From Corynebacterium appendicis CIP 107643 (GTDB lineage Bacteria > Actinomycetota > Actinomycetes > Mycobacteriales > Mycobacteriaceae), in NCBI RefSeq assembly GCF_030408415.1, contig NZ_CP046976.1:1834371-1898370 (forward strand): a DNA stretch of 64,000 bases, in the 5' to 3' direction. The translations under genes and the position numbers were made by a program. The notes below the pieces were generated by a model, which had not been told where the DNA came from, did not search any database, and was given only the letters and a program-made list of their open reading frames with translations. Each line of letters begins with the position of its first letter. The stretch's first letter is position 1. Shown piece after piece: positions 1-60,105 of this stretch.

Positions 1-1797
1 CTCTACGCACGTGCAAGCCTCATTCCGCACATGGATTCGGAGCGCCTGTTCGCACAGACGAAGGACGGTTTCGATTTCTACCACGAGAAATTCGGCCGCA
101 CCTACCCGTTCGGCGACAAGTACGACCAGATCTTCTGCCCCGAGTACAACATGGGCGCGATGGAGCACGTCGGTGCGGTGACCTACCGTGACGAGTACGT
201 CTTCACATCCGAGCCGACTCCGTACCGTCTCGAGCGCCGCAACGACACGATCCTCCACGAGATGGCCCACATGTGGTTCGGTGACCTGGTCACAATGCAG
301 TGGTGGGACGATCTGTGGCTCAACGAGTCCTTCGCGACCTGGTCCGCCGCAACAGCCCAGGTGGGCATCGGCGAGTACCCGGAGGCGTGGACGACATTCG
401 CCTCGGTAGAGAAGGCATGGGCCTACAACCAGGACCAGCTGCCGTCGACGCACCCGATCGCGGCTGACGCGCCCGATATCGAGACTGCCGAGCAGAACTT
501 CGACGGCATCACCTACGCCAAGGGCGCCAGCGTGCTCAAGCAGCTCCAGGCTTATGTCGGTTACGAGGAGTTCTTCGCCGGGGTTCGCACTCACTTCGAC
601 AATCACGCCTACTCCAATGCGGAGTTCGCGGATTTGCTTGGGGCGCTCGAGGAAGCGTCGGGACGCGACCTGTCCGACTGGGCGCAGCAGTGGCTGCGCA
701 CCACCGGCGTGTCCCGTTTGCGCCCGGACATCTCCGCAGACAGCTTCGCCGTCGTGCAAGAGTCCGATGTGATGCGCACGCACCGCGTCCGCGTCGGCCT
801 GTACTCGCTTATCGACGGCACCGTCACCCGCATCAAACAAGTCGAACTGGATGTCTCCGGCGAGCGCACCGAGATCCCCGAGCTGGCGGGCGTGGAGCAC
901 GACCTCACGTTGGTCAACGACGATGACCTCACCTACTGCCTCATGGGCCTGACCGAGGAGCATCAGCGTTTCGCCCTGGAACACCTCGGCGATATCGAGG
1001 ACTCCCTCGCACGCACTCTCGTGTGGTCGTCGTTGTGGGAGTCCGTGCGTGACGGCTTCCTGCCCGCCCGTCAGTTCGTCCAGCTGGTGGCACGCTTTGC
1101 CCGCCAGGAGACTCACCCGAGTGTGCAGGAGCGTCTGCTCGCCCAGGCAACCCAGGCAGTCAAGCAGTACGTCGCCGACGACTGGCGCGCCGAGGGCATG
1201 GCGCTGCTCAACACCGCTTTCCGCGGCGCCGAGCCCGCTGTCGTCTTCGACCGGGCCCTGGCCCGCCTCACTCCGGAAAAGGAGACGGTGGACCACTTCA
1301 CGCAGCTGCTGGAGACCTCAGATAACCAGGAAGTGCGCTGGCTGGCCATCACCGCGCTCATCGCCGCCGGCGAGTTGGATCTGTCGGCTGCCGAGGAAGA
1401 AAAGGATTCCTCCTCGGAGGGGGCGGTGTCGAGGCTGAGGGCGCGGGCGAGCGTCGATAAGCGCTGGGCGTGGGACAAGCTGGTGAACGAGGACCTCACC
1501 AACCTCGAATCCCGCTACCTCATGGATGGCCTGACCTTCTCCCGCGAGGGCCTCGACGGCTTGACCGACGAGTACTTCCGTGTGGCGCCGCAGCTGTGGG
1601 AGCGTCTGACCAACGAGATGGCGCAGCGCACGCTCGAGGGCATATACCCGCTGTGGGATGTCTCCGAGGAGGCGATCGCGAAGGCCGATGAAATGCTGGC
1701 CAGCGATATCCCGGCTGGTCTGCGCCGCATCATCTCCGAGGGCCAGGACCGCGCCGCCCGCGCACTGCGGAACCGCAAGGTGGACGCGCAGGCCTAA
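1..1797 (+). CDS. pepN: Aminopeptidase N (M1 family), 5'-truncated by window edge
   Basis: C-terminal 598 residues of a zinc aminopeptidase that removes N-terminal residues from peptides in the cytoplasm. The frame is open from base 1, so the true start lies upstream. The zinc motif HEMAH is at 256-270 and the third ligand Glu falls in NESFA about 20 residues later. The substrate-anchoring motif reads GAMEH rather than the usual GAMEN of M1 enzymes, an oddity in an otherwise canonical protein. The ERAP1-like helical C-terminal domain follows. It is convergent with metB, with a hairpin between them. Identification is secure; only the N-terminal domain is missing. Confidence 0.95.
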   Translation, partial: LYARASLIPHMDSERLFAQTKDGFDFYHEKFGRTYPFGDKYDQIFCPEYNMGAMEHVGAVTYRDEYVFTSEPTPYRLERRNDTILHEMAHMWFGDLVTMQWWDDLWLNESFATWSAATAQVGIGEYPEAWTTFASVEKAWAYNQDQLPSTHPIAADAPDIETAEQNFDGITYAKGASVLKQLQAYVGYEEFFAGVRTHFDNHAYSNAEFADLLGALEEASGRDLSDWAQQWLRTTGVSRLRPDISADSFAVVQESDVMRTHRVRVGLYSLIDGTVTRIKQVELDVSGERTEIPELAGVEHDLTLVNDDDLTYCLMGLTEEHQRFALEHLGDIEDSLARTLVWSSLWESVRDGFLPARQFVQLVARFARQETHPSVQERLLAQATQAVKQYVADDWRAEGMALLNTAFRGAEPAVVFDRALARLTPEKETVDHFTQLLETSDNQEVRWLAITALIAAGELDLSAAEEEKDSSSEGAVSRLRARASVDKRWAWDKLVNEDLTNLESRYLMDGLTFSREGLDGLTDEYFRVAPQLWERLTNEMAQRTLEGIYPLWDVSEEAIAKADEMLASDIPAGLRRIISEGQDRAARALRNRKVDAQA

Positions 1798-1808
1798 GTG
1801 ATTCCGGG

Positions 1809-3674: not shown

Positions 3675-4880
3675 ATGCCATCTACGGTGATCAGTCCTTC
3701 ACAGACATTGCTCGCGGTCGTGCCGCCGCTCGTGGAGAGCGGGCAGATAGCGGCCCCGTACGCCGCCGTGGATATCGCAGCCTTCGACTACAACGCGAAG
3801 CAGATGGTCGGCCGGGCGCGGGGGTTACCGATCCGGGTGGCGTCGAAGTCGCTGCGCAGCGTCGCAGCACTCCGGAGGGCGCTTGACCACGACGGTTTCC
3901 AGGGGATTTTGTCCTACAGCGTGCCGGAGGCGATCCACCTGGCACAGGCGGGATTCGACGATATCGTCGTGGCCTACCCGTGTGTGAACACAGCGGCTCT
4001 CAGAGAGCTCGCGGCGGACCAGAAATTGCGCGAGACCATCACCGCGATGGTGGACTGCACCGAGCACCTCGAGCTGATTGAGGCGGCAGCGCAGGGCGCG
4101 GGGCCGGTGCGGGTGGCCATCGATTTGGACTGCACGCTCCACCTGCCCGGCGCGGTCATCGGGCCGCGGCGCTCCCCGGTGCGTACGCCGGAGCAGGTGG
4201 AGGAGCTGGCGGGGGCGATCGTCGATAAGCGTTGCCTGCGTCTGGTCGGCGTCATGGCGTACGAGGGGCAGGTCGCGTCGGTCGCTGATGCGGAATCGGG
4301 CGTGGCGGGTTCCGTGAAGCGGTGGTTGCGGCGCACGTCGATGGAGCAGCTGGCGCCGCGCCGAAAGGCGTGCATCGACGCGGCGCGGCAATTCGCGGAC
4401 CTGGAATTTGTCAACGGCGGCGGGACGGGCTCGCTGGACGTGAGCGCCGACGAGGGAACCCTGACGGAGCTCGCGGCGGGCTCGGGCTTTTACACGCCGG
4501 TCATCTTCGACAACTTCGCCACCGTCAACCACCGCGCGGCCGCATTCTTCATCTGCCAGGTCTCCCGCATCCCGGCGAAGGGCTGGGCGACGGTGAACTC
4601 AGGCGGGTGGATCGCGTCCGGCCCGCCCGCCGCGGACCGCGTGCCCGTGGCCGTGCACCCCGGCGGACTGAAATATTCCGCGACGGAGGGCGCGGGCGAG
4701 GTGCAGACCCCGCTCCACGGGCCGGGCGCGAGCAGCGTGCGCGTCGGCGACCTCGTGTGGTTCCGCCACGCAAAAGCCGGAGAGATGACGGAGCACGTCG
4801 ACGGAATCGTCGCCGTCCACCCGGACGGGACAGCAGAAACGTGGGACACATACAGAGGAAATGGGTGGACGCTGCGATGA
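3675..4880 (+). CDS. Fold-type III PLP enzyme (D-threonine aldolase / alanine racemase-like; amino acid deaminase/aldolase)
   Basis: 401-residue cytosolic PLP enzyme with an alanine-racemase-type barrel. The PLP lysine lies in IRVASKSLRS near residue 58, and the C-terminal metal/phosphate region includes VNSGGW and VWFRHAKAGE. Family members act on D-amino acids or beta-hydroxy amino acids; the exact substrate cannot be read from sequence. ATG 3675 has TACGAT 6 bases upstream and no ribosome site, suggesting leaderless translation. The stop overlaps the ATG of the lactone oxidase gene (ATGA), so the two form an operon. Confidence 0.82.
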   Translation: MPSTVISPSQTLLAVVPPLVESGQIAAPYAAVDIAAFDYNAKQMVGRARGLPIRVASKSLRSVAALRRALDHDGFQGILSYSVPEAIHLAQAGFDDIVVAYPCVNTAALRELAADQKLRETITAMVDCTEHLELIEAAAQGAGPVRVAIDLDCTLHLPGAVIGPRRSPVRTPEQVEELAGAIVDKRCLRLVGVMAYEGQVASVADAESGVAGSVKRWLRRTSMEQLAPRRKACIDAARQFADLEFVNGGGTGSLDVSADEGTLTELAAGSGFYTPVIFDNFATVNHRAAAFFICQVSRIPAKGWATVNSGGWIASGPPAADRVPVAVHPGGLKYSATEGAGEVQTPLHGPGASSVRVGDLVWFRHAKAGEMTEHVDGIVAVHPDGTAETWDTYRGNGWTLR

Positions 4881-6222
4881 CCTTCACAATCAGCGAACCT
4901 GAAATGCGCACGGGCCAAAGTTTCACCAACTGGTCGGGGTCGGTGAGCACCAACCCGACGGCGTTCTACTACCCCGCCACCATCGAGGAAGTCCAGCGCA
5001 TCGTGCGCACGCTGCCTGCGGGCCAATCTGTGCGCACGGTCGGCGGCGGCCACTCGTTCACGCCGGTCGCAGCGGGCACGCAGGCGATGATCAGCCTGGA
5101 CAAGCTCGCGGGCATCATGCGCATCGACACGGAGACCAAGCGCGTGCGCTTCCTCGCCGGCACGCGCCTGCACCGCATCCCGGAATACCTCCAGCCGTTC
5201 GGCCTCGCGCTCGCCAACCAGGGCGACATCGACGTCCAGTCGGTCGCCGGCGCGATCTCCACATCGACGCACGGCACGGGCATCGAGTGGACCGGGTTCG
5301 CGGGCACAGTCACCGGCATTTCGCTTATCGACGCCACCGGTGAGCGCCGCGACTACTCCATCGACCCCGATCCGGACATGCTCCGTTTGGTGACCGTCTC
5401 ACTGGGCGCCCTGGGCGTCGTCGTCGAGGTGGAAATGCAGTGCGTCGACGCCTTCGACCTGCTGGCGGAAGAGGGCGCCGAAAGCCTGGATGCGGTGCTC
5501 GATTCGTGGGAGGAGCGCTCCCGCGCCGTCGACCACTACGAGGCGTTCTGGTTCCCGCACACCGGCCGCGCGATGGTGAAGTCCAATACGCGCCTGGCCC
5601 CCGGTGTGCGGGCGCCCGGCGGCGAGCCGAAAGTGCGCGGTAAATTAACCCGTTTCCTCGAAGACGACGTGATCGGCAACGGCGCCTTCGCCGCCTCCCT
5701 GGCAGTCGCACGGGCGATTCCGCGCACCACTCCCGTGCTGAACAACATCGCGGCAAGCGCCATGGCCGCGAACCGCTACCGCTCCCGCGCCCACGACGTG
5801 TTTGCTACCCCGCGCCGGGTTCGCTTCCACGAAATGGAATTCGCGGTGCCCCTCGAGGCCGGGCCGGAGGCGGTGCGCGAAATCAATCGGGAATTTGAGC
5901 GCCGCAACTGGCTCATCCCCTTCCCCTGGAGCTGCGCACCACCGCCGCGGACGATGTAGCGCTGTCCACTTCCACTGGGCGGGAGTCGATGTACATCGCC
6001 TTCCACGTGTCTAAGGCGATGAATCCGCACGAGTTCTTCCCCGCGATCCAGGACATCTTGAAAGCCGCGGGCGGGCGCCCCCACTGGGGCAAGATGCACA
6101 CGCTCGGCCGAGAAGACTTCGCGGAGATGTACCCGCGTTTCGACGAATTCTGCACCCTGCGCGAGCAGATGGACCCGACCCGGAAATTCGGGTCGGAACA
6201 CCTGACGCAACTGTTCGGATAA
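4877..6222 (+). pseudogene. D-arabinono-1,4-lactone oxidase-like FAD oxidase, frameshifted
   Basis: FAD-binding oxidoreductase of the aldonolactone oxidase (VAO) family. The N-terminal FAD domain shows RTVGGGHSFTPVA and AGAISTSTHGTG; the C-terminal domain ends with HWGKMHT and FDEFCTLREQMDP. The first frame runs 4877-5959 and then hits a stop, while the conserved C-terminus continues one frame over to 6222. Reading switches correctly (FPLELRTTAADD) if one C is added to the CCCC at 5923-5926, so one base is missing in a homopolymer. It overlaps the aldolase stop by ATGA. It may be a true pseudogene or a sequencing error. Confidence 0.85.
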
Positions 6223-6225
6223 GGG

Positions 6226-6906
6226 TTAACCGAACAGGTTGATCCCGCCGGAGGTGTAGTAGACGCTGCCGAACGGGGCATCGAGGCGGATCCACCGGCC
6301 CGCGGTGGAGATGCGCATGTGCCGCGGGATCTCCACCGGGGCGCTCGGGCCCGGTATGAGTCCGAGCGAGGTGCAGGTGAAGATCATCCGCATCGGCACA
6401 TCGACCGGAGTGCCGCCGGTCTTTTCGGTGTCGGCGGTGAGCACGATCTGCTCGAGAAGCGAGCGCGGCGGGCCCATCGGCCCGGAGAACTGGCGCGCCA
6501 AGCGGCGGCCCTGGTCAGCGAGGTCGCGCACCACGTGAACCGGCACAATATCGCGCTGGACGTAGCCGGACTTCGGCGGCAGTGCGCCCAGCCAATTCGC
6601 GTCACGTGCCGGTCCGATCTCCAACGGCCCGTTGGAGGAGCCGGAGCTTAGATCGGTAACGCCGGCGAGGGCGTCGCGCAGGTCCTGCAGCGAGACCACT
6701 GCCCCGTCGCGGGAGGCCTGCCCCGCCACCCGGCGCGAGGCCACACAGCTAAACGGCGTGGTCACGAACACGTCGACGGAGGGGGTGGGGGCGGCAGGAA
6801 GCGTCGATAAGCGTGCTGAACCTGTTGCTTCCAGATGAAGCGCACGCTCGACGAGCGCCTTGAGCCCGGCTGCCCCCGACTCGACCGTGAGTGTCTCTGT
6901 ACCCAC
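6226..6906 (-). CDS. Conserved hypothetical protein
   Basis: 226-residue protein I do not recognise. It has no membrane segment or signal peptide. It opens VGTETLTVESGAAGLKALVE and contains a segment beginning DVFVTTPFSCVASRRV, probably a soluble alpha/beta fold. The GTG start at 6906 overlaps the last base of the upstream thioesterase stop (TAGTG), so translation is coupled and a related role is possible. The longer frame to 7023 lies inside the thioesterase gene and is not needed. Its stop is 3 bases from the end of the convergent lactone oxidase. Confidence 0.75.
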   Translation of the reverse strand: MGTETLTVESGAAGLKALVERALHLEATGSARLSTLPAAPTPSVDVFVTTPFSCVASRRVAGQASRDGAVVSLQDLRDALAGVTDLSSGSSNGPLEIGPARDANWLGALPPKSGYVQRDIVPVHVVRDLADQGRRLARQFSGPMGPPRSLLEQIVLTADTEKTGGTPVDVPMRMIFTCTSLGLIPGPSAPVEIPRHMRISTAGRWIRLDAPFGSVYYTSGGINLFG

Positions 6907-7404: not shown

Positions 7405-9075
7405 TTAGCGCGTCAGCTTGCGGTGCGTGACGCGGGACGGCTTGGCGGCTTCCTCGCCGAGACGCTCCACCTTATTGGCTTCGTAGTCGCCGAAGTTGCC
7501 TTCGAACCAGAACCACTTGCCTTCCTCAATATTGCCCTCCCAGGCGAGGATGTGTGTGCAAGTTCGGTCGAGGAACCAGCGGTCGTGCGAAATGACCACG
7601 GCACAGCCCGGGAATTTCTGGAGCGCATTCTCCAAAGAGCTCAGGGTTTCGACGTCGAGGTCGTTGGTCGGCTCGTCGAGGAGGATCAGGTTTCCGCCCT
7701 GCTTGAGGGTCAAAGCCAGGTTCAGGCGGTTGCGCTCACCACCGGAGAGAACCTTAGACGGCTTCTGCTGGTCCGGCCCCTTGAAGCCGAACGCGGACAG
7801 GTACGCGCGCGACGGCATTTCGTTCTGGCCGACGTGAATGTAATCGAGCCCGTCGGAGACGACCTCCCACACCGTCTGCTCTGGGTCGATGTTCTCGCGG
7901 TTTTGGTCCACGTACGAGATCTGCACAGTGTCGCCGACCTCGACCGAACCGGAATCCGGCTCCTCGAAACCGACGATCGTCTTGAACAGCGTCGACTTAC
8001 CCACACCGTTCGGGCCGATGACACCGACGATGCCGTTGCGCGGCAGCGTGAACGACAGGTCCTTGATCAGAGTGCGGCCGTCGAAGCCCTTGTTCAGGTC
8101 CTTGACCTCGACGACCTTGTTGCCCAGGCGCGGCGGCGTCGGGATCTGGATCTCCTCGAAGTCGAGCTTGCGGTACTGCTCCGCCTCGGCAGCCATCTCC
8201 TCGTAGCGCTCCAGGCGCGCCTTGTTCTTCGCCTGGCGTGCCTTCGGCGAGGAGCGGACCCACTCCAGCTCGCCCTTCAGTCGCTTCTGCAGCTTCTGGT
8301 CCTTCTTGCCCGCGATCTCGAGGCGCTCAGCCTTCTTCTCCAGGTAGGTGGAGTAGTTGCCCTCGTACGGGTAGAGCTTGCCGCGGTCGACCTCGCAGAT
8401 CCACTCCGCGACGTGGTCGAGGAAGTAGCGGTCGTGGGTAACGGCCAGGACGGCGCCCGGGTAGTCCTGGAGATGCTTCTCCAGCCACAGGACACTCTCG
8501 GCGTCGAGGTGGTTCGTCGGCTCGTCGAGAAGCAGCAGGTCCGGCTGGGACAGCAGCAGCTTGGCCAGTGCCACGCGGCGGCGCTCGCCACCCGAGAGGT
8601 TGGTCACCGGGGAATCCGACGGCGGGCAGCGCAGTGCCTCCATGGCCTGCTCGATCTTGGAGTCGACCTCCCACGCGTCAGCCGCGTCGAGCTCCTCCTG
8701 CAGCTTGCCCATTTCCTCCATGAGCTCGTCGGAGTAGTTCGTGGCCATCTCCGCGGCGATCTCCTCGAAGCGCTGCTTCTTCTCGAAGATGTCGCCCAGG
8801 CCCTCTTCGACATTCTCGCGTACCGTCTTCTCCTCGTTCAGTGGCGGTTCCTGGAGCAGGATGCCCACGGTCGCGCCCGGGTCGAGGAATGCCTCGCCGT
8901 TATTCGGCTGGTCGATGCCCGCCATGATCTTCAGCAGCGAGGACTTGCCCGCGCCGTTGGGGCCCACGACACCGATCTTGGCGCCCGGGTAAAAAGCCAT
9001 CGTGACATTGTCCAGAATGACCTTGTCACCGACCGCCCTGCGAACATTTTTCATCGTGTAGATGAACTCGGCCAC
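7405..9075 (-). CDS. ettA: Energy-dependent translational throttle protein EttA (ABC-F)
   Basis: 556-residue soluble ABC-F protein with two ATPase domains and no membrane part. EttA binds the ribosomal E site and gates entry into elongation according to ADP/ATP ratio. Walker A motifs are GPNGAGKSS and GPNGVGKST, and signature motifs LSGGERRR and LSGGERNR. Between them are the charged arm/linker segments (YLEKKAERLE, WVRSSPKARQAKNKARLERYEE). Start GTG 9075 follows AAAGGGGACTTAA. The length matches EttA rather than shorter ABC-F resistance proteins. Confidence 0.93.
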   Translation of the reverse strand: MAEFIYTMKNVRRAVGDKVILDNVTMAFYPGAKIGVVGPNGAGKSSLLKIMAGIDQPNNGEAFLDPGATVGILLQEPPLNEEKTVRENVEEGLGDIFEKKQRFEEIAAEMATNYSDELMEEMGKLQEELDAADAWEVDSKIEQAMEALRCPPSDSPVTNLSGGERRRVALAKLLLSQPDLLLLDEPTNHLDAESVLWLEKHLQDYPGAVLAVTHDRYFLDHVAEWICEVDRGKLYPYEGNYSTYLEKKAERLEIAGKKDQKLQKRLKGELEWVRSSPKARQAKNKARLERYEEMAAEAEQYRKLDFEEIQIPTPPRLGNKVVEVKDLNKGFDGRTLIKDLSFTLPRNGIVGVIGPNGVGKSTLFKTIVGFEEPDSGSVEVGDTVQISYVDQNRENIDPEQTVWEVVSDGLDYIHVGQNEMPSRAYLSAFGFKGPDQQKPSKVLSGGERNRLNLALTLKQGGNLILLDEPTNDLDVETLSSLENALQKFPGCAVVISHDRWFLDRTCTHILAWEGNIEEGKWFWFEGNFGDYEANKVERLGEEAAKPSRVTHRKLTR

Positions 9076-10064: not shown

Positions 10065-12071
10065 TTAGTTGGTTCCGTTCGAGCCCCGATTCGAGTTCTG
10101 CTTCGACCGCGCCGAGTACTGCGCGAGCATCTCGTTGTAGGCGCGCCACTGCTCGTCATCCGATTCGTCTTCGCGGCGGTCGCTGTCCTTTGCGTCAGCG
10201 CGGTCGTCGCGAAGCCAGCCCAGAAGGAGAATGACGAAGACGAGCGCCATCGGGAAGCCGCCGGCCGCCCAGCCGATGCCGCCGCCGATCTTCTGGTCGC
10301 GCAGCAGATCTGGGTTCCACGGCAATTCGAGGTTGGTGTAGAAATCCTCGGCCAAGACGTAGGAGAGCTGCATCAGGTACACGCCCATGAATAGGTGGAT
10401 CGGCATGGAGAAGACGAACCACGCGAAGCGGATCACCGTGGCACGGCGGTTGGGCACATAGTCCGGTCCGATGAGGTCCCAGAAATAGAAGTAGCCCGAC
10501 AGCAGGAAGACGGCGTTCATGATGAGGTGGCCGGCGTGCTCGGAGACCGCGAATTCGTAGAACGACGGGAAAACGTAGAGCACGTAGAAGACAACAAGGA
10601 ACTGCACAGTGGACACCGGCGGGTATGTGACCACCTTGAGGAAGGTCGATTCCTCGAACGCTTCGACCCAGGCGCGGGCGTTGAACTCGCCTTCCGGGTA
10701 CGCCTGTTTGACCAGGGTCAGCGGGGCGCCGAGCACGAGGAAGACGGGCACGACCATCGACAGGATCATGTGCACGACCATGTGCACGGAGAAGCTCGCC
10801 GGCATGTACATGCCGATGCCCGACGACATGATCACGACCGTCGTCGCACAGCCGGCCAGCCACCATGCGGTGCGCGAGTGTTTCCAACCGTCCACCCGGC
10901 GCACGAGGTGCAGGTAGTAGGCGGCGAGCAGGAGCGCGATGACGCTGAAGAAGACCTCGAAGCGCCACATGCCGAACACGTTGGTCACCGTCGGCGCGAC
11001 TTCAAGGTTGTAGCCCATCTGGATCTGCATCGGCGTCAAGTCCGGTTGCAGCGGCGCCGGCGGAGGGGTGCGGCCCATCGACACAGCCACGCCCGTAACC
11101 GCTGCCATCACGAGCGTTTCGACGACGGCGATCCGCCCGAACAACCGTGGCCTGCTCTCCAACTGCGGAATGGTCAACTGACGGTGCGCGTAGCCCAGCA
11201 ACCCCAGCACGGCCAGCCCGATGACTTTGAGCAGCACCGTCCACCCGTAGGCCGTCGAGGTCAGATCGGAGAACTGCACCCGTATCAGCGCGTTGACCAC
11301 GCCGGAGACCATCAGCGTGACGAACGCGAACAGCGCCACCGACGAGTACCGCCGCACAGCGCGCGGCATCTCCGGCCCGAGCCTGCGCGCGTGCGCGATG
11401 AGCGCCAGCAGCCCGCCGACCCACAGCAGCATGAACACCAGGTGCCACAGGTAGGAGTTCGTGCCGTAGTCGTGGTTTCCGCCCGAGGCGGAGTGGCCCG
11501 ACAGGCCCAGCGGGATCACAGTGATGATCGAACCGATGAACAGCGCGACCTGCGACGACCACGAGCTGCACGCGAAACCGAAACCGGCGACGACCGCCGC
11601 GATCAGCCCCACGATCAACCAGATCTTCGCCTCCGCGACCCGCTCCAGGGCAGTCGCCCACATCTGCGGGGAGAACATCACCTCGGGCAGCGGTGTGCCC
11701 GACACATCCGACAGGACCAGCGGGATCATCACCAGCGCTATCAGCGCCAGCCCTGCGCTCGACCAGGCCGCAGTGCGGGCGGCAAGGTGGCCGTCGACGG
11801 CGAGTGAGGCGTCGATTAGCTTCCTGCTATTCGGCGGAATCATGAACGCCGCGAACATGAACGACCCGGTGGCGAGCGCCCCCAGCAACCAGGCCACCCC
11901 GCGCAACGCCGGCAACCCCACCGTGGTCAGCGGGCCTGGATCCGGGATGCCCAGCGCCGCCAGGGAACCACCCACGAAACTGAACGACAACGCCCCGGCC
12001 ACCACGGCGCCGACCGCCAACACCGCGAGGTAGACCGGCCACGCCGACTTCACTGCTTGCTTCTCCGACAT
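10065..12071 (-). CDS. Bifunctional CopD-type copper / CtaG (caa3_CtaG) cytochrome c oxidase assembly membrane protein
   Basis: 668-residue polytopic membrane protein. The N-terminal half has CopD-like segments (LLWVGGLLALIAHARRLGPEMPRA, RRYSSVALFAFVTLMVSG). The C-terminal half is a CtaG/caa3 assembly domain with HMVVHMILSMVVP and VLYVFPSFYEFAVSEHAGHL. The probable role is delivering copper to the cytochrome oxidase whose subunit I is encoded at 42895-44736. ATG 12071 is chosen; the open frame continues to 12185, but that extension looks non-coding. The charged C-tail ends near the DnaA-box hairpin. Confidence 0.85.
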   Translation of the reverse strand: MSEKQAVKSAWPVYLAVLAVGAVVAGALSFSFVGGSLAALGIPDPGPLTTVGLPALRGVAWLLGALATGSFMFAAFMIPPNSRKLIDASLAVDGHLAARTAAWSSAGLALIALVMIPLVLSDVSGTPLPEVMFSPQMWATALERVAEAKIWLIVGLIAAVVAGFGFACSSWSSQVALFIGSIITVIPLGLSGHSASGGNHDYGTNSYLWHLVFMLLWVGGLLALIAHARRLGPEMPRAVRRYSSVALFAFVTLMVSGVVNALIRVQFSDLTSTAYGWTVLLKVIGLAVLGLLGYAHRQLTIPQLESRPRLFGRIAVVETLVMAAVTGVAVSMGRTPPPAPLQPDLTPMQIQMGYNLEVAPTVTNVFGMWRFEVFFSVIALLLAAYYLHLVRRVDGWKHSRTAWWLAGCATTVVIMSSGIGMYMPASFSVHMVVHMILSMVVPVFLVLGAPLTLVKQAYPEGEFNARAWVEAFEESTFLKVVTYPPVSTVQFLVVFYVLYVFPSFYEFAVSEHAGHLIMNAVFLLSGYFYFWDLIGPDYVPNRRATVIRFAWFVFSMPIHLFMGVYLMQLSYVLAEDFYTNLELPWNPDLLRDQKIGGGIGWAAGGFPMALVFVILLLGWLRDDRADAKDSDRREDESDDEQWRAYNEMLAQYSARSKQNSNRGSNGTN

Positions 12072-12177
12072 GGCAATCACCCTACTTTCGTTGGACGGCA
12101 ATATGGAAAGCCGTCCCCCGTGCGATACGATGAGGTCCGCCCAAAACACGCGCCCCTCGAGCGCAAAAAAAGGGCAA

Positions 12178-12251
12178 GCCCCCATAGCTCAGTGGATTAG
12201 AGCATCCGGTTTCTACCCGGCTGGTCGCGGGTTCGAATCCTGCTGGGGGCG
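12178..12251 (+). tRNA. tRNA-Arg (anticodon UCU)
   Basis: Cloverleaf with acceptor GCCCCCA/TGGGGGC, D-arm GCTC..GAGC, anticodon loop TTTCTAC giving UCU, and T-arm GCGGGTTCGAATCCTGC. No CCA is encoded. The 3' 49 bases are duplicated at 16066-16114, marking this gene as the attachment site of an integrated element. Confidence 0.95.
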
Positions 12252-13612: not shown

Positions 13613-13637
13613 GCGGAACAAAAACCAGGACGCTTCA

Positions 13638-45009: not shown

Positions 45010-48238
<3,229 letters not shown>

Positions 48239-50210: not shown

Positions 50211-51083
50211 ATGCCACACGAGTCCGACAATCTGTCCGAGAACCCGTCCCACGACGCGATCGGTGCTACGCAGCAAGAGATCATCGCTGCGCTCGGCGTG
50301 AAGCCGTTCATCGCACCCGCCGGCGAGATCGCCCGGCGCGTGGACTTCCTCGTCGACTACCTGGAGAAGACCGGGGCGAAAGGCTTCGTCCTCGGCATTT
50401 CGGGCGGCCAAGACTCGACGTTGGCGGGCAAGCTCGCGCAGCTTGCCGTGGAGAAAGCCCGGGAACAGGGGCGCGAGGCCACGTTCGTCGCGGTGCGCCT
50501 CCCCCACGGTGTCCAGTCAGACGAGGACGACGCGCAGCTCGCGCTCGATTTCATCCAGCCGGACCGGCGCGTCACGGTCAATATCGAACCCGCGACGACC
50601 GCGCTCGCAGCCGAAGTCGCCGGCAGCCTCGACCGCGAGAAGCTCGGCGACTTCAACAAGGGCAACGTCAAAGCCCGTCTGCGCATGACTGCCCAGTACG
50701 CGATCGCGGGCGAGCTCGGCCTCCTCGTTATCGGCACGGACCACGCGGCGGAGAACGTCACGGGATTCTTCACAAAATTCGGCGACGGTGCCGCGGACCT
50801 CGTCCCGCTCGCCGGTCTGAACAAGCGCCAAGGCGCGCAGCTCCTCGCTCACCTCGAGGCCGACAAGCGCCTCTACGAGAAGGTTCCCACCGCCGACCTC
50901 GAGGAAGACCGCCCGGCGCTTCCCGACGAGGAGGCGCTCGGCATCACCTACGCCGAGATCGACGACTACTTGGAAGGCACGCTTATCGACGCCTCCTCCG
51001 CCCAGCGCCTCGAGCACCTCTGGACGGTCGGCCAGCACAAGCGGCACCTACCACCCGGCCCGGCAGAGACCTGGTGGGTTTAG
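50211..51083 (+). CDS. nadE: NH3-dependent NAD+ synthetase
   Basis: 290-residue adenine nucleotide alpha-hydrolase that converts deamido-NAD to NAD. The ATP loop [14 protein letters not shown], the [23 protein letters not shown] block and [10 protein letters not shown] are diagnostic; no glutaminase domain, so ammonia is the donor. TACGAT ends 7 bases before ATG 50211, implying a leaderless mRNA. Complements pncA and pncB. Confidence 0.95.
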
Positions 51084-51178: not shown

Positions 51179-51952
51179 TTAACCGACGACGCGCAGCGTC
51201 TCCTCCGCCGCGCGGACCAGCGCAGATCCGTAGCTGGGTCCGTGGGTGTAGGCGTGGACGGCGAGCGGGTGGAGCTGGTGGACCGGGATGCGCCGTTCCC
51301 AGTCGCCGCCGGAGGCATCGCCCAAGGATCCTCCGGAGGCGAGGTAGCCGTCGATAAGCGAGCGCAGGTGCGGTGCGCCGAAGAGCTCGAGCATCGCGAT
51401 GTCCGTCAGCGGGTGGCCGCCGTGCGCGGCCGGGTCGATGAACCGCGGGCCGGTCGTTGAAAACAGGAGGTTGCCCGTCCATAGATCGCCGTGAATGCGC
51501 GCGAGCGGTGCGTCCTCGTCCTCCGCGAGTAGAGCGTCGCACGCGCGCTGGACCGTGTCTAAGCCTGCCGCGTCCAGGTTGCCTCTCGTGTGGGCCTTCT
51601 CTGCGAACGGCAGGACGCGTTGCTCGGTGTAGAACTCCCCCCAACGTTCTGTCGGCGTGCATTCCTGCTGCGCGCGCCCGATGAAATTGGGGCCGTCCCA
51701 GCCGTCGGCGGGCGCGCCGAATGCGTCCGCACCCATCGCGTGAATGGCGGCGAGCTCGCGCCCGGCCTCCTTGGCGGCGTCAGCGCTCGGGCGGGCGCTG
51801 ACGACACGCTCGATGGTGACCGTGTTGGCGTCTTCGTCGAGGCCTAAAACCTCCACTACCGCGTCGGAGCCCTCCCGCAGCCAACGCAGGTACGCCGCCT
51901 CAGCTGCGGCGGCGCCCGGCGCGCTGCCCTGCTTCACGAATGCGTCAGACAT
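51179..51952 (-). CDS. Fructosamine kinase family protein
   Basis: 257-residue protein-kinase-like fold enzyme expected to phosphorylate ketoamines or ribulosamines on glycated amines. The catalytic loop RIHGDLWTGNLLF and metal motif FIDPAAHGG match the FN3K family; WGEFYTEQRVLPF precedes them. ATG 51952 overlaps the ogt end by 8 bp, so the two genes are coupled. The earlier in-frame start would sit inside ogt. Confidence 0.87.
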   Translation of the reverse strand: MSDAFVKQGSAPGAAAAEAAYLRWLREGSDAVVEVLGLDEDANTVTIERVVSARPSADAAKEAGRELAAIHAMGADAFGAPADGWDGPNFIGRAQQECTPTERWGEFYTEQRVLPFAEKAHTRGNLDAAGLDTVQRACDALLAEDEDAPLARIHGDLWTGNLLFSTTGPRFIDPAAHGGHPLTDIAMLELFGAPHLRSLIDGYLASGGSLGDASGGDWERRIPVHQLHPLAVHAYTHGPSYGSALVRAAEETLRVVG

Positions 51953-52742: not shown

Positions 52743-53507
52743 TTAGCTAGCCAGAAGGTCGTCGATCCAGTTCTCGAGGGGGTTGGAGTCGACGTCCTTG
52801 CCGTCGACAAGCACGCGCGGGGAGGAAAGCTCGCCGGTCTTGTCCACGAGGTCCTTCTGGTTGGCCTCGCCGAGCTCCTTTGCCTGGTCGACGTAGTCGC
52901 CGTTGCGGATGGCGTCGACAGCGTCACCGGAAGCGCCGACGCCCTTCGCGAGGTCGGCGAGCTTCTCCGGGTCGGCGCTGCCGTACAGGCCCTCCTGCTC
53001 CTCGAGGAGGGCCTTGCGCAGGTTCCAGTACGCCTCGGTCTCGCCCTTGTCGGCGAGCGCGAGCACAGCGGCCAGGGTGTTCGTCGAGTGGCCGACGGTG
53101 TGCTGCTCACCGGTGCCGTCGAGGAAGACCATGGGGCGTATGTGGACCGTGACCTCGCCGGCCTTGATCTTCCCCAGCATCTCAGCGTCGGTCTTCTTCG
53201 CCAGGTCGGCGCAGTAGCTGCAGGCGAAGTCCTCGTAGAGGGAGGCTTCCTTCGCGCCGTCGCTGTTCTCGCCGGACAGGGTGATGGTGTTGTCGGTGAG
53301 CTCCATGGTCACGCCGTCGACGGGCTCGACGTTCTCGGCGATGCGGTCAGCCTGCGCGCCGCGGCCGTTGTAGACGATCAGGCCGATCACCAGCGCGCCG
53401 ACGAGGACCAGGGCGAGAAGCGCCCACAGGAAGCCTTTGCCGCCGGTCGAGTTGGGGTTGGACACCTTGGTGGAACCCTTGGTGTTCGACGTAGAAGAGG
53501 AAGTCAC
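52743..53507 (-). CDS. DsbA-like membrane-anchored thiol oxidoreductase
   Basis: 254 residues. A Ser/Thr-rich N-tail, one membrane anchor (about 25-46), then a thioredoxin domain with an inserted helical part and the CSYC pair (Cys96, Cys99); cis-Pro region SPRVLVDGKDV. Probably forms disulfides in exported proteins. GTG 53507 follows AAGGTG. The MauE-like gene upstream on the same strand may be its redox partner, as VKOR/MauE proteins often pair with DsbA. Confidence 0.87.
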   Translation of the reverse strand: MTSSSTSNTKGSTKVSNPNSTGGKGFLWALLALVLVGALVIGLIVYNGRGAQADRIAENVEPVDGVTMELTDNTITLSGENSDGAKEASLYEDFACSYCADLAKKTDAEMLGKIKAGEVTVHIRPMVFLDGTGEQHTVGHSTNTLAAVLALADKGETEAYWNLRKALLEEQEGLYGSADPEKLADLAKGVGASGDAVDAIRNGDYVDQAKELGEANQKDLVDKTGELSSPRVLVDGKDVDSNPLENWIDDLLAS

Positions 53508-53555: not shown

Positions 53556-54077
53556 CTACGGGTACAGCGCGAATTTCTTAAACGGGCGGTAGATCATGAA
53601 CAGCGTCACGGCGATCAGGCCGATGTCGCGGATGATGTCCCAGAGCAGGTCACCGCTGGGGTTTCCCGGGTCCGGCGCGAGACAGCCGCAGTCGATCTGC
53701 AGTCCACGGGCATACGCGGACGAAAGGCCGATGACGAACAAGAGGAGCACGCCGAACGACACCCAACCAGCGGGCCGGATTTTGATGCCCAGCAGCAGGA
53801 TCAGGCCGCCAGCGAGTTCCAGCGGGCCGATGAGGTTCGCCAGCAGACTCGACCAGTACGGGGTGAAAATATCGTATGCTTCGATATTCCGCGCCACCGT
53901 CATGTGGTTGCCGAGTTTTGTCGTGCCCCTGACAATCCACATCACGGCGAGACCGAAGCGAGCGAGCGCGGAGAGCACGTCGAGCACGCGTTCGCTTGTC
54001 GACGTCTCCCCTGCTCCCGGCTCCGCGCCGTCCAGAGTGTCGGGCTCTGCCACCTGCACATCGTATGTATTCGCCAC
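53556..54077 (-). CDS. MauE/DoxX-family redox membrane protein
   Basis: 173 residues, four membrane helices (about 36-55, 80-98, 103-122, 142-165) and a CGC cysteine pair in QIDCGCLAPDP between helices 3 and 4. The MauE family helps form disulfides during methylamine dehydrogenase assembly; here the DsbA-like gene follows. GTG 54077 has TAAGGT 7 bases upstream (leaderless). Function is inferred from fold and context. Confidence 0.8.
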   Translation of the reverse strand: MANTYDVQVAEPDTLDGAEPGAGETSTSERVLDVLSALARFGLAVMWIVRGTTKLGNHMTVARNIEAYDIFTPYWSSLLANLIGPLELAGGLILLLGIKIRPAGWVSFGVLLLFVIGLSSAYARGLQIDCGCLAPDPGNPSGDLLWDIIRDIGLIAVTLFMIYRPFKKFALYP

Positions 54078-54154: not shown

Positions 54155-55813
54155 TTATTCGCCGAGCACTGAACTGACCAGCTCTTGGGCTTCCTTCTGC
54201 ACCTGCTTCAGGTGCTCCTCACCGCTGAATGATTCGGCGTAAATCTTGTATTTATCTTCCGTGCCGGACGGGCGCGCGGCGAACCAGGCGTTGTCGGTGG
54301 TGACCTTGAGCCCGCCGATGGCCGCGCCGTTGCCGGGTGCTTCGGTGAGCTTCGCGGTGATCGGGTCGCCCGCCAGCGTGGTGGCCGTGACCTGGTCCGG
54401 GGAGAGCTTCTTCAACGTCGCCTTCTGCTCGCGGTTTGCCTCGGCGTCGGTGCGGGCGTAGACCGGTGCGCCGAATTCCTGCTCCAGTTCCGCGTAGCGC
54501 TGCGACGGAGTCTTCCCGGTCACCGCGGTGATCTCGGCGGCGAGCAGATCCATGATCAGGCCGTCCTTGTCGGTCGACCATACGGTGCCGTCTGTGCGCA
54601 GGAAGGAGGCACCCGCGGATTCTTCGCCGCCGAAACCGACCGCGCCGTCGATAAGCCCGGGCACGAACCACTTGAAGCCGACGGGCACCTCGACCAGCTT
54701 CTTGTCCAGCGACGCCACAACGCGATCAATCATCGAGGAAGACACGAGTGTCTTGCCCACGGCGGTATCCGCGCCCCAGCCGTCGCGGTGGGTGAACAGG
54801 TACTCGATGGCCACGGCCAGATAGTGGTTCGGGTTCATCAGCCCAGCATCCGGGGTGACGATGCCGTGGCGGTCCGCGTCCGCGTCATTGCCCGTCGCAA
54901 TGTCGTATTTATCGCGGTTGGCAACGAGACTCGCCATGGAATTCGGCGAGGAGCAGTCCATGCGGATCTTGCCGTCGGTGTCCAGCGTCATGAACCGCCA
55001 GGTGGCGTCCACCGTCGGGTTCACCACCGTGAGGTCGAGCTTGTGTGCCTCGGCGATCGCGCCCCAGTAGTCCACGCTCGCGCCACCCATCGGGTCCGCG
55101 CCGATGCGCACGCCTGCGCCCCGGATTGCGTCGATATCCACGACATTCGGCAGGTCCGCGACGTAGTTGTCCATGAAGGGGTGTGTACCCGCGCGCTCGT
55201 CGAGCACGCCGCTCACCGCCGTGCGGCGCACACCGTCGAGCCCTTTGGCCAGGTACTCGTTCGCCCGTGCGGCGATCCAGTCCGTCGCGTCAGTGTCGGC
55301 TGGACCGCCCGACGGCGGGTTGTATTTGAAGCCGCCGTCGCGCGGTGGGTTGTGGGACGGAGTGATGACGATACCGTCGGCCCGCTTCGGATCCGTGCCG
55401 GTGACACCGCCAGCCAGCTTCGCGTTGTGCGCGAGGATCGCGTGGGACACGGCGGGGGTCGGAGTGTAGCGCCCCGCGGCGTCGACAAGCACTGCGACAT
55501 CGTTGCCGATGAGCACCTCGAGCGCCGACACCATCGCTGGTTCGCTGAGTGCGTGCGTGTCGCGGCCGATGTAGACGGGCCCGTCGATGCTGTTCTCGCG
55601 ACGGTAGTCGACGATCGCCTGCGTCGTCGCCCAGATGTGCTGCTGGTTGAACGCGTTGTCCAGGCTCGACCCGCGGTGGCCGGACGTGCCGAACGCGACC
55701 TGCTGGTCCGGGTCCGCCGCGTCGATGTCGCGCGTGTAGTAGGCGGTGACCACCTCCGCGATGTCGATCAGATCCTCGGGACGTGCCGGCTGGCCGGCTC
55801 GCTCGTGTGCCAT
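54155..55813 (-). CDS. pgm: Phosphoglucomutase (alpha-D-glucose-1,6-bisphosphate-dependent)
   Basis: 552 residues of the alpha-D-phosphohexomutase superfamily, interconverting glucose 1- and 6-phosphate. [16 protein letters not shown] is the N-terminal signature; phosphoserine Ser153 in TPSHNP; the metal loop DADADRHGI; sugar loop [10 protein letters not shown]; phosphate loop [21 protein letters not shown] lies about 9 bases before ATG 55813. Feeds glycogen, trehalose and cell-wall precursors. Confidence 0.94.
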
Positions 55814-55964: not shown

Positions 55965-56327
55965 GTGGTGAACACGGCATTCAAAGAAGCTCTCGCGGTC
56001 GGTTTCGGCGCGTCTTTCGGCGCACTCGCGCGCTTCGCGTTCACCCCGCTGATCGCGCCGGAGCCGCCGTCCGAGATCGTCATCATCTTCATCATCAATG
56101 CGATCGGCTGCTTCCTCATGGGCCGTTTCGACCCGGGCCCGTTCTGGGGCCGCGGCATGATCGGCGGCTTCACCACGTTTTCCGCCGTGTCGTTCCTGGC
56201 CATGCAGTCCAGCGCTTTCATCGCGCTCATCTACATGGCCGGCACCATGATCGTCGCGCTCGCAGCATGGGAACTCGGCGACGCTTTACGACGCCGCCGT
56301 GACCGCCCCCAGGAGGTGACACCGTGA
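55965..56327 (+). CDS. crcB: Fluoride channel subunit CrcB/Fluc, first paralog
   Basis: 120-residue four-helix membrane protein that exports fluoride. GASFGALARFAFTPLI and NAIGCFLMGRF, then GGFTTFSAVSFLAMQ hold the polar track and Phe box. GTG 55965 follows TACCGT by 6 bases (leaderless). Its stop overlaps the next GTG (GTGA), so the two are made as a pair, as in heterodimeric channels. No fluoride riboswitch is visible upstream. Confidence 0.9.
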   Translation: MVNTAFKEALAVGFGASFGALARFAFTPLIAPEPPSEIVIIFIINAIGCFLMGRFDPGPFWGRGMIGGFTTFSAVSFLAMQSSAFIALIYMAGTMIVALAAWELGDALRRRRDRPQEVTP

Positions 56328-56779: not shown

Positions 56780-59338
56780 CTATTCAGCGATGGCGTCCAG
56801 CGGCGGCGTTTTCGCCGCACGCTGCGCAGGCCACAGCGCGGCAATGATGCCGACGAGCACCGAACCCGCGAGCATTCCCGCGATCATCGTCCACGGATAG
56901 GCGATATTCTCCAGGCCCTGGTCGGCCAGCACCGTGAGGAAGGCCCAGCCGAGCAGCAGACCCGTCGCCACGCCGAGCAGCGCGCCGAACACCGCGATCT
57001 GGACGGACTCCAGAATGATCATGGTGCGCACCTGCCCGCGCTGCGTGCCCACCGCGCGGAGCATGCCGATCTCCTGACGGCGCTCGATGACCGACAGCGT
57101 CAGCGTGTTGATGATGCCCAGAATCGCGATCACCACCGCCAACGACAGCAGCGCGTAGAGGATGTACAGCATCTGGTTGATCATCTGCTGCGCCTCACCG
57201 CCGAGCTCCTCCGGGGAACGGACCTGCACCACGATGTCGTCGTGAATAGCCGCCTCGAGATTGGCGCGCAGTTCGTCCTCACTGACAGAACCGTCGTTAT
57301 TCACGCCCACCATGAGCACCTTGAAGCTCTCCGGCGGCATGAGCTGCTCCACTGTCTTCTGCGACAGGACCCAGGACGCGAAGATTTGGGAGTCCTCGAA
57401 CAGGCCGGTCACTGTGGCTTCCGCCTCGGGCGCACTCTCCCACTCGGGCGCGGCGATGGTCACCGTGTCTCCGACAGCCACGCCTTTTTCTTGGGCGAGG
57501 GAGGCGGGGAGGAGAACGCCGCCGTCGCTAAGCGAAGAGCTGCCCTCCGTCATGGTGAGCGTGACGAGCTTGCCCGGGTCTCCCGCGATGACATCCGTGG
57601 CCCCGACCGGGCCGAACTGGTTGCTGAATTCCCCGTTCACCGTCACGCGCGCCTGCGTGTACGAGACGACTTCACCGGCTCCGTCCACGTCCTTGACGCG
57701 TTCGGGCAGATCGTTCGGGATAGGGAACGTGCCCAGCTGCGGCCCCTGGAGCACCATGTCGGCATCGACGTCGTTTTCCAGCACGTCGTCGACGGAACGC
57801 TCCATCGTGGAACCCAACATGCCGATCGCCGTCACCAGCGCGATGCCGAGCATGAGCGCGAACGCCGTCGCTGAGGCGCGGCGCGGATTGCGCTTCGAAT
57901 TCGTCGCCGCAAGCGAGCCCACCGAGCCGAACGGCGCGCCAATGACCCGCCCCAGGACCGGAACGACCGGCAACGACAATGCGGGGCCTGCGAGGAAGAG
58001 ACCGACGATGACGAACACCGCTGCGGCACCGATGAGCAGCGCGCGGCGGCTCGTCGAACCGTCGTCCCACATCACGCCCCAGGCGAGGAACCCGGCGCCC
58101 GCGGCGAGCAGCAGTCCGCCCACGACGGTGCGCGCGAGAAGCGGCTGCGGGGTCGCAGACTCGCTGGACCTCATCGCCTCCACCGGCTGGACGCGGCCTG
58201 CGCGGCGCGCAGGCGCCCACGCCGAGAGCACCGTCGCTACACCGCCCACGACGATGGGCACCACGACCGCGCTGACCGACAGCCCCGCCCCTGCGCCGGG
58301 CAGACCCATGCCCTGGGCGTCCATCACCGCGCGGATCACCGCCACCATGCCGGCGCCGGCGGCCACGCCCAGAACAGAGCCGAGCAGGCCCACCAGGAGC
58401 GCTTCCACCACGACTGAGCGGGTGATCTGCCCTTTCGAGGCGCCGAGGGCGCGAAGCAGCGCGAATTCCTTCGTCCTCTGCGCGACGATCATCGAGAAGG
58501 TGTTGGCGATCAAGAAGGTGCCGACCAGAAGACCCACGAGACCGAAAGCAGTCAGGAAGTAGCTGATGAAGCTCAAGCCCTCGCGGATTTGCTTGGACAT
58601 GTCGTCGGCAAGCACGAAGCCCTCTTTGACCGTGACGTCGCTGTGCGCTTTCGCGATGTGGTCTTTCAGTTGCGTGGGCTCTGTGCCGTCCGCGGCTGTG
58701 AGTGCAAGGCCGGGGACGTAACGGCCGTTGGTGTAATACTCGAGGAAGGCGCTCTCGGGCACCTTCAGCATGAGCGATGCGCCCTGGTCGAGGTCGTCCG
58801 TGTACAAGCCCGTCACCCTCATAGTGTGGCGACCCTCCGGGTCCGCGACGATGACCTCATCGCCCACCGCGAGGCCGTATTTCTCCGCTCCCGCGGCGTT
58901 CAGCAACGTCTCCCCCGGCTTCGTCGGGCCAGCGCCCTCCGTGATCTGAAAAGGCGCGCCCACGACCGCGTCGTCCGGGTAGTACAGCCCCACGCGCGAC
59001 TCGCCGGCGCCGGTCTGGATCGCATTCGCGTCGGCGTCCGCGACGACCACGGCTTCCGATCCGTCCACCGCGACCCGGGCGACCTTCGGGTCCGCCGCGA
59101 GCTCGTCGCGCAGCTCCGCGGGGACGATCGACTTTCCTTCCGCTGGCTGGACGACCACGTCGATATCGTCGTACCTGCTCGCCACCGCCTGATCGAAGGA
59201 ACGCTCGAGCATATTCGTGAACATCAGCGAGCCCGAAATGAACGCCGTGCCCAGCACGACAGCGAGCACCGTGAGAGCGAGCCGCAGCTTATGGGCGCCG
59301 ATATTCCTCACCGACACCTTCGTCATTGCGCCCGCCAT
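56780..59338 (-). CDS. ABC transporter permease, FtsX/MacB type
   Basis: 852-residue membrane protein with two FtsX domains and two large extracytoplasmic (MacB_PCD) domains: N-terminal helix and PCD (about 20-230), three helices (250-380), a second helix and PCD (480-700) and the final helices (720-840). NTLTLSVIERRQEIGMLRAVG and EFALLRALGASKGQI are the conserved cytoplasmic coupling loops. ATG 59338 overlaps the ATPase stop (TGATG). Likely exports or modifies envelope components; substrate unknown. Confidence 0.9.
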   Translation of the reverse strand: MAGAMTKVSVRNIGAHKLRLALTVLAVVLGTAFISGSLMFTNMLERSFDQAVASRYDDIDVVVQPAEGKSIVPAELRDELAADPKVARVAVDGSEAVVVADADANAIQTGAGESRVGLYYPDDAVVGAPFQITEGAGPTKPGETLLNAAGAEKYGLAVGDEVIVADPEGRHTMRVTGLYTDDLDQGASLMLKVPESAFLEYYTNGRYVPGLALTAADGTEPTQLKDHIAKAHSDVTVKEGFVLADDMSKQIREGLSFISYFLTAFGLVGLLVGTFLIANTFSMIVAQRTKEFALLRALGASKGQITRSVVVEALLVGLLGSVLGVAAGAGMVAVIRAVMDAQGMGLPGAGAGLSVSAVVVPIVVGGVATVLSAWAPARRAGRVQPVEAMRSSESATPQPLLARTVVGGLLLAAGAGFLAWGVMWDDGSTSRRALLIGAAAVFVIVGLFLAGPALSLPVVPVLGRVIGAPFGSVGSLAATNSKRNPRRASATAFALMLGIALVTAIGMLGSTMERSVDDVLENDVDADMVLQGPQLGTFPIPNDLPERVKDVDGAGEVVSYTQARVTVNGEFSNQFGPVGATDVIAGDPGKLVTLTMTEGSSSLSDGGVLLPASLAQEKGVAVGDTVTIAAPEWESAPEAEATVTGLFEDSQIFASWVLSQKTVEQLMPPESFKVLMVGVNNDGSVSEDELRANLEAAIHDDIVVQVRSPEELGGEAQQMINQMLYILYALLSLAVVIAILGIINTLTLSVIERRQEIGMLRAVGTQRGQVRTMIILESVQIAVFGALLGVATGLLLGWAFLTVLADQGLENIAYPWTMIAGMLAGSVLVGIIAALWPAQRAAKTPPLDAIAE

Positions 59339-60105
59339 CAGCCCTCGATTCCGCTCATCGTGGACAGGATCTCCTCCATCGTGGGTGCGTGGAGCTCGTC
59401 AACAATATTGCCGTCAGCGAGGAATACCACGCGGTCCGCGTACGACGCCGCCCGCGCATCGTGTGTGACAATGACGACGGTCTGCTCGTCGCCGTCGACC
59501 GCGGAGCGCAGGATCTCCAGCACCTCACGCGACGAGTTCGAGTCGAGGTTGCCTGTCGGCTCGTCGCCGAAGATGATCTCCGGCCGGCTCACGAGCGCAC
59601 GCGCGCACGCCACGCGTTGCTGCTGCCCACCGGACAGTTCGCTCGGACGGTGGCTCAGACGCTTCGCCAACCCGAGGCGCTGCGTGATCTCCTCGTACCA
59701 CGCACGGTCGACCTTGCGGCCCGCAATATCCGCCGGCAGAGTGATATTCTCCGCCGCCGTCAGCGTGGGAACCAGATTGAAAGACTGGAAAATGAAGCCC
59801 AAACGGTCGCGCCGCAGCGCAGTCAGTTCCTTCTCATTCAGCGTCGCCAGATCCGTCCCGCCGATCTCCACGGAGCCGGAATCGAAAGAATCCAGCCCAG
59901 CCATCGTATGCATAAGCGTCGACTTGCCGGAACCGCTCGGCCCCATGATCGCTGTGAACTCATGCGCCGGGAACTCGTAGCTCACCCCATCCAGCGCAGT
60001 GACCTGCGTGTCGCCGTGGCCGTACGTCTTCACCAAGCTCACCGCTCTCGCGGCATAAGCATTCCGCTTATCGACGGCACCGTACCCCACCGAATGCTTC
60101 CCCAT
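59338..60105 (-). CDS. ABC transporter ATP-binding protein (MacB/LolD type)
   Basis: 255-residue ATPase. Walker A GPSGSGKST, Q-loop FQSFNLVP, signature LSGGQQQRVACARAL, Walker B IIFGDEPTGNLDS (the TGNLDS ending is typical of the MacB/LolD class), H-loop VTHDARAASYADR. AAAGGAG lies 9 bases before ATG 60105. Pairs with the coupled permease downstream; sits between them and the rRNA operon terminator. Confidence 0.93.
   Translation of the reverse strand: MGKHSVGYGAVDKRNAYAARAVSLVKTYGHGDTQVTALDGVSYEFPAHEFTAIMGPSGSGKSTLMHTMAGLDSFDSGSVEIGGTDLATLNEKELTALRRDRLGFIFQSFNLVPTLTAAENITLPADIAGRKVDRAWYEEITQRLGLAKRLSHRPSELSGGQQQRVACARALVSRPEIIFGDEPTGNLDSNSSREVLEILRSAVDGDEQTVVIVTHDARAASYADRVVFLADGNIVDELHAPTMEEILSTMSGIEG

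Follow-up and report, generated by a model that had tools for sequence, protein, structure and literature searches.

Why does a single 11-base word, CGTCGATAAGC, recur along a 64-kb stretch of the Corynebacterium appendicis CIP 107643 chromosome? The stretch analysed here (bases 1834371-1898370 of NZ_CP046976.1, referred to as the window) belongs to a single-contig genome of 2,284,440 bases. An earlier description made from the letters alone, here called the sequence-only reading, reported 15 exact copies between window positions 807 and 60076, 8 on the plus and 7 on the minus strand, with well under one copy expected by chance. A direct count gave the same copies on the same strands, and 100 dinucleotide shuffles of the window yielded a mean of 0.04 copies and 1 at most. 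In the whole genome the word occurs 282 + 303 = 585 times, and the reversed word once. In this study, we find that CGTCGATAAGC is the commonest form of a chromosome-wide tag, CGTCGNNAAGC, which is kept up at the DNA level and whose sites have changed dialect in place between species. We propose that this tag is probably a DNA uptake sequence of Corynebacterium, used for self-recognition.

The form of the word was derived from 864 kb of the genome, composed of two stretches (1434371-1898370 and 1-400000; approximately 38% of the genome). When k-mers were ranked de novo in this sample, CGTCGATAAGC was the top 11-mer, with 229 copies against 3.3 expected under a fourth-order Markov model. Single changes at nine of its bases left only 0-23 copies each. 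Replacement of base 7 by A, C or G gave words with 41-43 copies each, and words with both middle bases altered occur as well (e.g., CGTCGTCAAGC with 43 copies). Thus, the sequence-only reading identified a real and enriched word but understated the unit, which is CGTCGNNAAGC, nine fixed bases with two free bases in the middle. The form with AT at the free bases accounts for 229 of the 503 copies in the sample and for 15 of the 28 in the window. Genome-wide, CGTCGNNAAGC is found 663 + 661 = 1,324 times, about once per 1.7 kb, and the reversed word 48 + 44 = 92 times. The word is not palindromic, since it differs from its own reverse complement, and it is interrupted by the two-base gap.

Maintenance of the tag inside genes was analysed with a simple codon-based gene caller, which predicted 633 genes in the 864 kb and assigned 76-77% of the sample, and 57% of the window, as coding; the coding counts are hence conservative. 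Predicted genes contain 374 of the 503 copies. After synonymous codon shuffling within genes, which preserves every peptide, 45.8 coding copies were left (standard deviation 5.6, maximum 59, 30 runs), and the AT form fell from 153 to 5.7. Seven control words, including the related word CATCGNNAAGC described below, were present at 0.44 to 1.35 times their shuffled counts, one of them 2.3-fold below. The view that selection acts on the DNA, and not on the protein, is borne out by these numbers; the comparison with a codon-shuffled expectation had been proposed along with it, and the count lies far above that expectation. The varied reading frames that had been described were not recovered to the same degree, as 321 of the 374 coding copies fall into two main frames, 247 antisense (L-x-D) and 74 sense (V-x-K). 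Among the sites permitted by the protein sequence, the tag occupies 74 of 125 (59%) in the sense and 247 of 537 (46%) in the antisense main frame, and 12-19% in the remaining four frames. The reversed word filled 0-3% of its permitted sites in four frames, and 1 of 4 and 13 of 31 in the other two; we read the last value as the effect of common codons. In total, 269 coding copies are antisense and 105 sense, versus 12.7 and 31.8 after shuffling. A transcription effect behind this antisense excess was considered and dropped, because with 537 against 125 permitted main-frame sites and occupancies of 46% and 59% the excess largely follows from the proteins.

The distribution of the tag was determined in 242 Corynebacterium genomes, in which the exact 11-mer CGTCGATAAGC occurs 0 to 782 times. 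In other genera of the family (271 genomes from 30 genera, of 301 family genomes, searched for the exact 11-mer alone) at most seven copies per genome were detected. By thresholds of our own choice, which leave some genomes borderline, 172 of the 242 genomes use CGTCGNNAAGC (G dialect; at least three times the reversed count) and 14 use CATCGNNAAGC, which differs by one base (A dialect; at least 450 copies), while 4 are intermediate (159-223 A words) and 52 carry neither. The tag is thus found in most other Corynebacterium genomes, where the sequence-only reading had suggested looking for it. A genomes possess 490-1,337 A words and no more than 97 G words, with the exception of genome G023, which has 352. 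Species could be named at comEC loci (the best 80 of 204, most of them about 21 kb long). The G word is present at the loci of C. striatum, C. tuberculostearicum, C. minutissimum, C. aurimucosum, C. propinquum, C. pilosum, C. glaucum and others, the A word at those of C. macginleyi, C. phoceense and several further species, and no or few tags at those of C. jeikeium, C. falsenii, C. phocae, C. spheniscorum and C. uropygiale. A LepA tree with 121 rows, of which 104 are different and in which some species are represented twice, was built with a quick method and supported by the Shimodaira-Hasegawa-like approximate likelihood ratio test (SH-aLRT) only; it contains many weak forks. In this tree, A genomes occupy about four positions within the G genomes, and untagged genomes are found at many. 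The species of the window groups with Corynebacterium sp. Marseille-P3884 and genome G171.

Conservation of the nine fixed bases relative to their flanks was analysed in aligned comEC loci, in which site pairs are not independent. Between G loci of 85-90% identity, mismatch was 0.026 at fixed bases and 0.112 in flanks (793 site pairs, 84% intact), and at 80-85% identity 0.052 and 0.177 (2,917 pairs, 73% intact). The A word behaves alike, with 0.058 against 0.168 between A loci of 75-80% identity (396 pairs, 89% intact). Towards untagged genomes, the fixed bases of G loci change as fast as their surroundings, with 0.190 versus 0.196 at 80-85% (794 pairs, 1% intact) and 0.234 versus 0.234 at 75-80% (2,070 pairs, 4% intact). 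From G to A loci the constraint is weaker (0.129 versus 0.158 at 80-85%; 480 pairs, with an intact share that rounds to 0.00). Twelve control words were tried, and words with fewer than 10 sites were dropped. At 85-90% identity, nine of them gave mismatches of 0.10-0.23; at 90-95%, two of five came close to the conservation of the tag (0.038 and 0.044, from 26 and 20 sites, against 0.026). Strong constraint on the fixed bases is seen inside a dialect, and none towards untagged genomes.

The two dialects occupy the same sites. When CGTCGNNAAGC sites were aligned to seven A-dialect loci (1,566 pairs), the partner read CATCGNNAAGC in 666 cases, CGTCGNNAAGC in 3 and neither in 897. Starting from the 1,762 A sites, the partner read G in 666 cases, A in 45 and neither word in 1,051. 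When C. macginleyi was aligned with C. tuberculostearicum, base 2 was the sole difference from a G site at four of the five A sites compared. Tag sites have therefore changed dialect in place. Alignment of the untagged Corynebacterium sp. zg-331 to C. oculi and C. lowii gave 14 site comparisons, which include some sites twice, and in none of them did zg-331 show an intact word.

Tags are scarce on plasmids. Six plasmids of tagged species (three of C. striatum, two of C. tuberculostearicum, one of C. aurimucosum; 203 kb in total, two covered only to base 50,000) contain 9 tag copies and 3 reversed words, compared with 0.37-0.61 tags per kb at five chromosomal loci of C. striatum, C. tuberculostearicum, C. 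aurimucosum and C. minutissimum. Seven of the nine plasmid copies are located at 5.7-13.1 kb of pTP10, together with tetAB and chromosomal-type genes (mshC, dihydroorotate dehydrogenase), and the other two on NZ_CP069515 in a predicted aac(3)-XI gene and the adjoining sensor-kinase gene. On pTP10 the tag positions outline the chromosomal-type stretch, so that the tag could help to trace the origin of DNA.

Short words with very many chromosomal copies and related, species-specific dialects are described for the DNA uptake sequence (DUS) of the Neisseriaceae (Frye et al., 2013; PMC3630211), and CGTCGNNAAGC resembles the DUS as presented there in copy number and closeness of dialects. It differs in the word itself, in the phylum, in its two free middle bases and in being known from sequence alone. 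The uptake signal sequence (USS) of the Pasteurellaceae, according to the passages covered of a 2016 review (PMC5031613), is a 9-nt word with hundreds to thousands of copies and variants among species. CGTCGNNAAGC likewise has nine fixed bases, a comparable copy number and species variants, but is another word and belongs to an actinobacterium that has ComEA/ComEC together with a Tad/Flp locus. As for known uptake sequences, we observed a high copy number in both orientations, maintenance at the DNA level, dialects and, within the small sample of six plasmids, scarcity in mobile DNA. Because the word is dense, non-polar, constrained within its dialect, scarce on plasmids, re-spelled in place and similar to published DUS and USS, uptake is the function that we infer. 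The sequence-only reading had compared the word, as a genome-wide tag, with HIP1 (highly iterated palindrome 1) of cyanobacteria or with uptake sequences; the latter comparison fits well and the former less so.

How the tag might work can be outlined with some caution. A receptor in the envelope or on the cell surface would bind tagged DNA best and would probably be part of a Tad/Flp pilus-ComEA-ComEC route. DNA of kin would be preferentially taken up and recombined, and tagged alleles would spread and keep replacing untagged ones. Where the specificity of the receptor shifts, sites one base away would be converted, and where uptake is lost, tags would decay like other sequence. Micrococcus luteus is likewise an actinobacterium that possesses comEA, comEC and a tad/flp locus, and its transformation needs Flp pili and is served by comEA and comEC; unlike the proposal for Corynebacterium, no uptake sequence is mentioned for it in the passages covered (PMC6370729). 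We consider it slightly better than an even bet that Actinobacteria have a DNA uptake sequence system with a Tad/Flp-pilus or ComEA-type receptor, which most of Corynebacterium possesses, which several lineages have re-spelled at existing sites and for which at least one species has substituted another word, CGCGGCGTCA (636 copies).

CGCGGCGTCA, a 10-mer, was detected in the untagged genome G011, where the reversed word has 15 copies; none of the other 241 genomes contains more than 67. Its right flank (T at 0.68, then A-rich) recalls GGCGTC-NNN-AA, and it may be either a far dialect or an independent word. The de novo search for tags in genomes poor in the 11-mer covered 20-100 kb of each and a minority of the 52 untagged genomes, so more tags may exist. 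The candidate k-mers of G020 comprise 22 copies confined to 4.9 kb, and the matches in G127 are weak. In the untagged G131, repeats that look CRISPR-like (a guess) top the list.

C. appendicis itself encodes comEA-comEC-holA and a tad-like locus with a Flp-type pilin (genes named by eye, the pilin by family match). ComEC was found in 241 of 242 genomes and ComEA at 118 of 121 comEC loci; for the Tad pilin the figure was 78 of 80. As ComEC and the Tad pilin are nearly universal, they cannot distinguish tagged from untagged species, and they permit uptake without supporting it. Fewer T2SSF matches in untagged genomes had pointed to Tad as a discriminator; the idea was dropped once a pilin had been detected in all 52 of them, and the difference probably reflects weak detection.

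Several observations speak against uptake through this route. ComEC and the Tad pilin also occur in species that lack the tag. In genome G171, a close relative of the window's species that carries 1,535 tags, neither a Tad pilin nor a T2SSF gene was detected, through loss or an assembly gap, and the tagged genomes G013, G090 and G229 each give two separate ComEC matches, which is a broken frame or an assembly fault. Columns of ComEA, ComEC, HolA and LepA scored against dialect revealed no convincing reader, and neither did the ComEA helix-hairpin-helix region (inspected by eye) or the open reading frames (ORFs) beside the Tad pilin (listed, unscored). The highest-scoring ComEA column, position 160, reached 0.83, and the top HolA column 0.78. 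Both dialects include exceptions at position 160, with T in 47 of 63 G rows and also in two A rows (G001, G026). The plasmids have a GC content of 0.52-0.59, below that of most tagged chromosomes, which in this small sample may explain part of their scarcity of tags. Natural transformation in Corynebacterium was not found among the literature matches listed. Among the open-access matches listed, neither the word nor uptake sequences of Corynebacterium are described, and the motif strings occur there only in papers whose titles look unrelated.

Three further observations concern the com genes. In C. phoceense (G128; A tag count 625), the ComEC open frame is just 285 amino acids long and no ComEA match was obtained; the com locus may have been lost recently. 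In the untagged G123, a TGA stop lies within the comEC match, and in the untagged G207 the comEA and comEC frames are about 2.5 kb apart.

Instead of being read at the cell surface, CGTCGNNAAGC might act inside the cell, as a site for chromosome architecture, replication, repair or recombination, such as a non-polar Chi-like or nucleoid-protein site. A strict, genome-wide word that is maintained within coding sequence would fit this, as would its spacing, for gaps between copies look random, with coefficients of variation of 0.99 and 0.88 in the two stretches. Chi and KOPS (FtsK-orienting polar sequences) are strand-biased. CGTCGNNAAGC is not, with strand counts of 132/136 (1434371-1898370) and 114/121 (1-400000), stretches that lie on opposite replichores if the origin is near base 1; the orientation bias relative to replication direction that marks Chi and KOPS is seen in neither, in line with the unbiased strands reported before. 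No marked clustering was detected over these 38% of the genome, and a basic internal site would hardly be expected to be absent in 52 of 242 genomes and re-spelled in several lineages. We therefore regard an internal site as rather improbable. If the tag were nevertheless read inside the cell, a well-studied genus would turn out to contain a large chromosomal signal that is so far unexplained.

Somewhat more doubtful still is an origin like that of HIP1, from a DNA methylase and directed repair, i.e., a mutational bias and not selection for function. Like CGTCGNNAAGC, HIP1 is a genome-wide word of one clade that is missing from or replaced by other words in some members, as far as described in the parts covered of PMC4390886. 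However, HIP words are palindromes matched by methylases in the same source, and CGTCGNNAAGC is non-palindromic with a two-base gap; a repair bias is also no obvious cause of plasmid scarcity. An effect of codon usage, of a recurring peptide or of a chance choice of window can practically be dismissed, as the concentration of 321 of 374 genic copies in two frames (L-x-D or V-x-K) stands against the loss of approximately 88% of coding copies in the peptide-preserving shuffle, the dialect-dependent constraint and the 172 of 242 genomes with at least three times the reversed-word count.

If the tag is an uptake sequence, it would be a further case in a phylum different from that of the proteobacterial families. 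Pasteurellaceae and Neisseriaceae are the two families for which the 2016 review, in the parts covered, gives uptake sequences (PMC5031613). With tagged, re-spelled and untagged members, the 242 genomes would allow direct tests of the origin, switching and loss of tags. Corynebacteria, which are common on human skin and mucosa, would then probably exchange DNA preferentially with their kin, by a route not found among the literature matches listed.

Within the window, 21 of the 28 copies lie in rough gene calls; the remaining seven are the copy at 46059, between two predicted genes, and six in long ORFs. The statement that 14 of the 15 exact copies are coding holds in so far as most copies are in genes or long ORFs and 46059 falls between predicted genes. 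Among the tagged ORFs, Pfam matches identify NAD synthase, phosphoglucomutase, NrdI and a helicase that is DinG-like, in line with the names nadE, pgm, nrdI and dinG given before. On the left side, CGTCGATAAGC is located at 807-817 (-), 1452-1462 (+), 4220-4230 (+; sense in ORF 3675-4880, VDK), 5323-5333 (-) and 6802-6812 (+), followed by CGTCGAGAAGC at 8523-8533 (+; antisense, LLD) and CGTCGCGAAGC at 10205-10215 (+; antisense, LRD). After a gap, CGTCGATAAGC at 17542-17552 (-; antisense, LID), CGTCGAGAAGC at 18197-18207 (-; antisense, LLD) and CGTCGAAAAGC at 19719-19729 (+) and 27083-27093 (-; antisense, LFD) are found. The CGTCGATAAGC copy at 32191-32201 (+) lies where an RNase PH ORF (31170-32351) overlaps a beta-lactamase-fold ORF (31946-33004); it is upstream of the RNase PH domain and more likely belongs to the second ORF. 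The DinG-like helicase ORF holds CGTCGAGAAGC at 38861-38871 (-; LLD) and CGTCGATAAGC at 39671-39681 (-; LID). CGTCGATAAGC follows at 41528-41538 (+; antisense, LID), at 46059-46069 (+; between two predicted genes as stated) and in nrdI at 48445-48455 (-; VDK). In nadE, CGTCGGGAAGC at 50918-50928 (-; LPD) is accompanied by CGTCGATAAGC at 50981-50991 (-; LID), and CGTCGATAAGC recurs at 51349-51359 (+; antisense, LID). CGTCGACAAGC is present at 52802-52812 (+; antisense, LVD), at 53994-54004 (-; sense, other frame) and in pgm at 55480-55490 (+; LVD), where CGTCGATAAGC also occurs at 54646-54656 (+; LID). The right side contains CGTCGTAAAGC at 56283-56293 (-; antisense, other frame), CGTCGCTAAGC at 57523-57533 (+; antisense, LSD), CGTCGGCAAGC at 58603-58613 (+; antisense, LAD) and CGTCGATAAGC at 60066-60076 (-) in an ABC-transporter ATPase gene (VDK).

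The sequence-only reading described a tRNA-Arg island, a copper cassette and the rRNA as tag-free, and long gaps between copies are seen at a tRNA-Arg/integrase segment, a P-type ATPase segment and the rRNA genes. No CGTCGNNAAGC copy is present at 10216-17541, where an integrase-core ORF (12698-13609; IS3-like by domains) lies just downstream of tRNA-Arg (12178-12252), at 19730-27082, which holds a P-type ATPase ORF, or in the 5S/23S rRNA at 60242-63615. Eight of 214 bins of 4 kb have a GC content below 60% and contain a mean of about 1.0 copy, against 2.0-2.6 in other GC classes. Finally, a segment of approximately 17.5 kb (genome 1767567-1785039) with a lower GC content (0.58-0.60) and one tag copy is located a few kb from comEC and may be acquired DNA.

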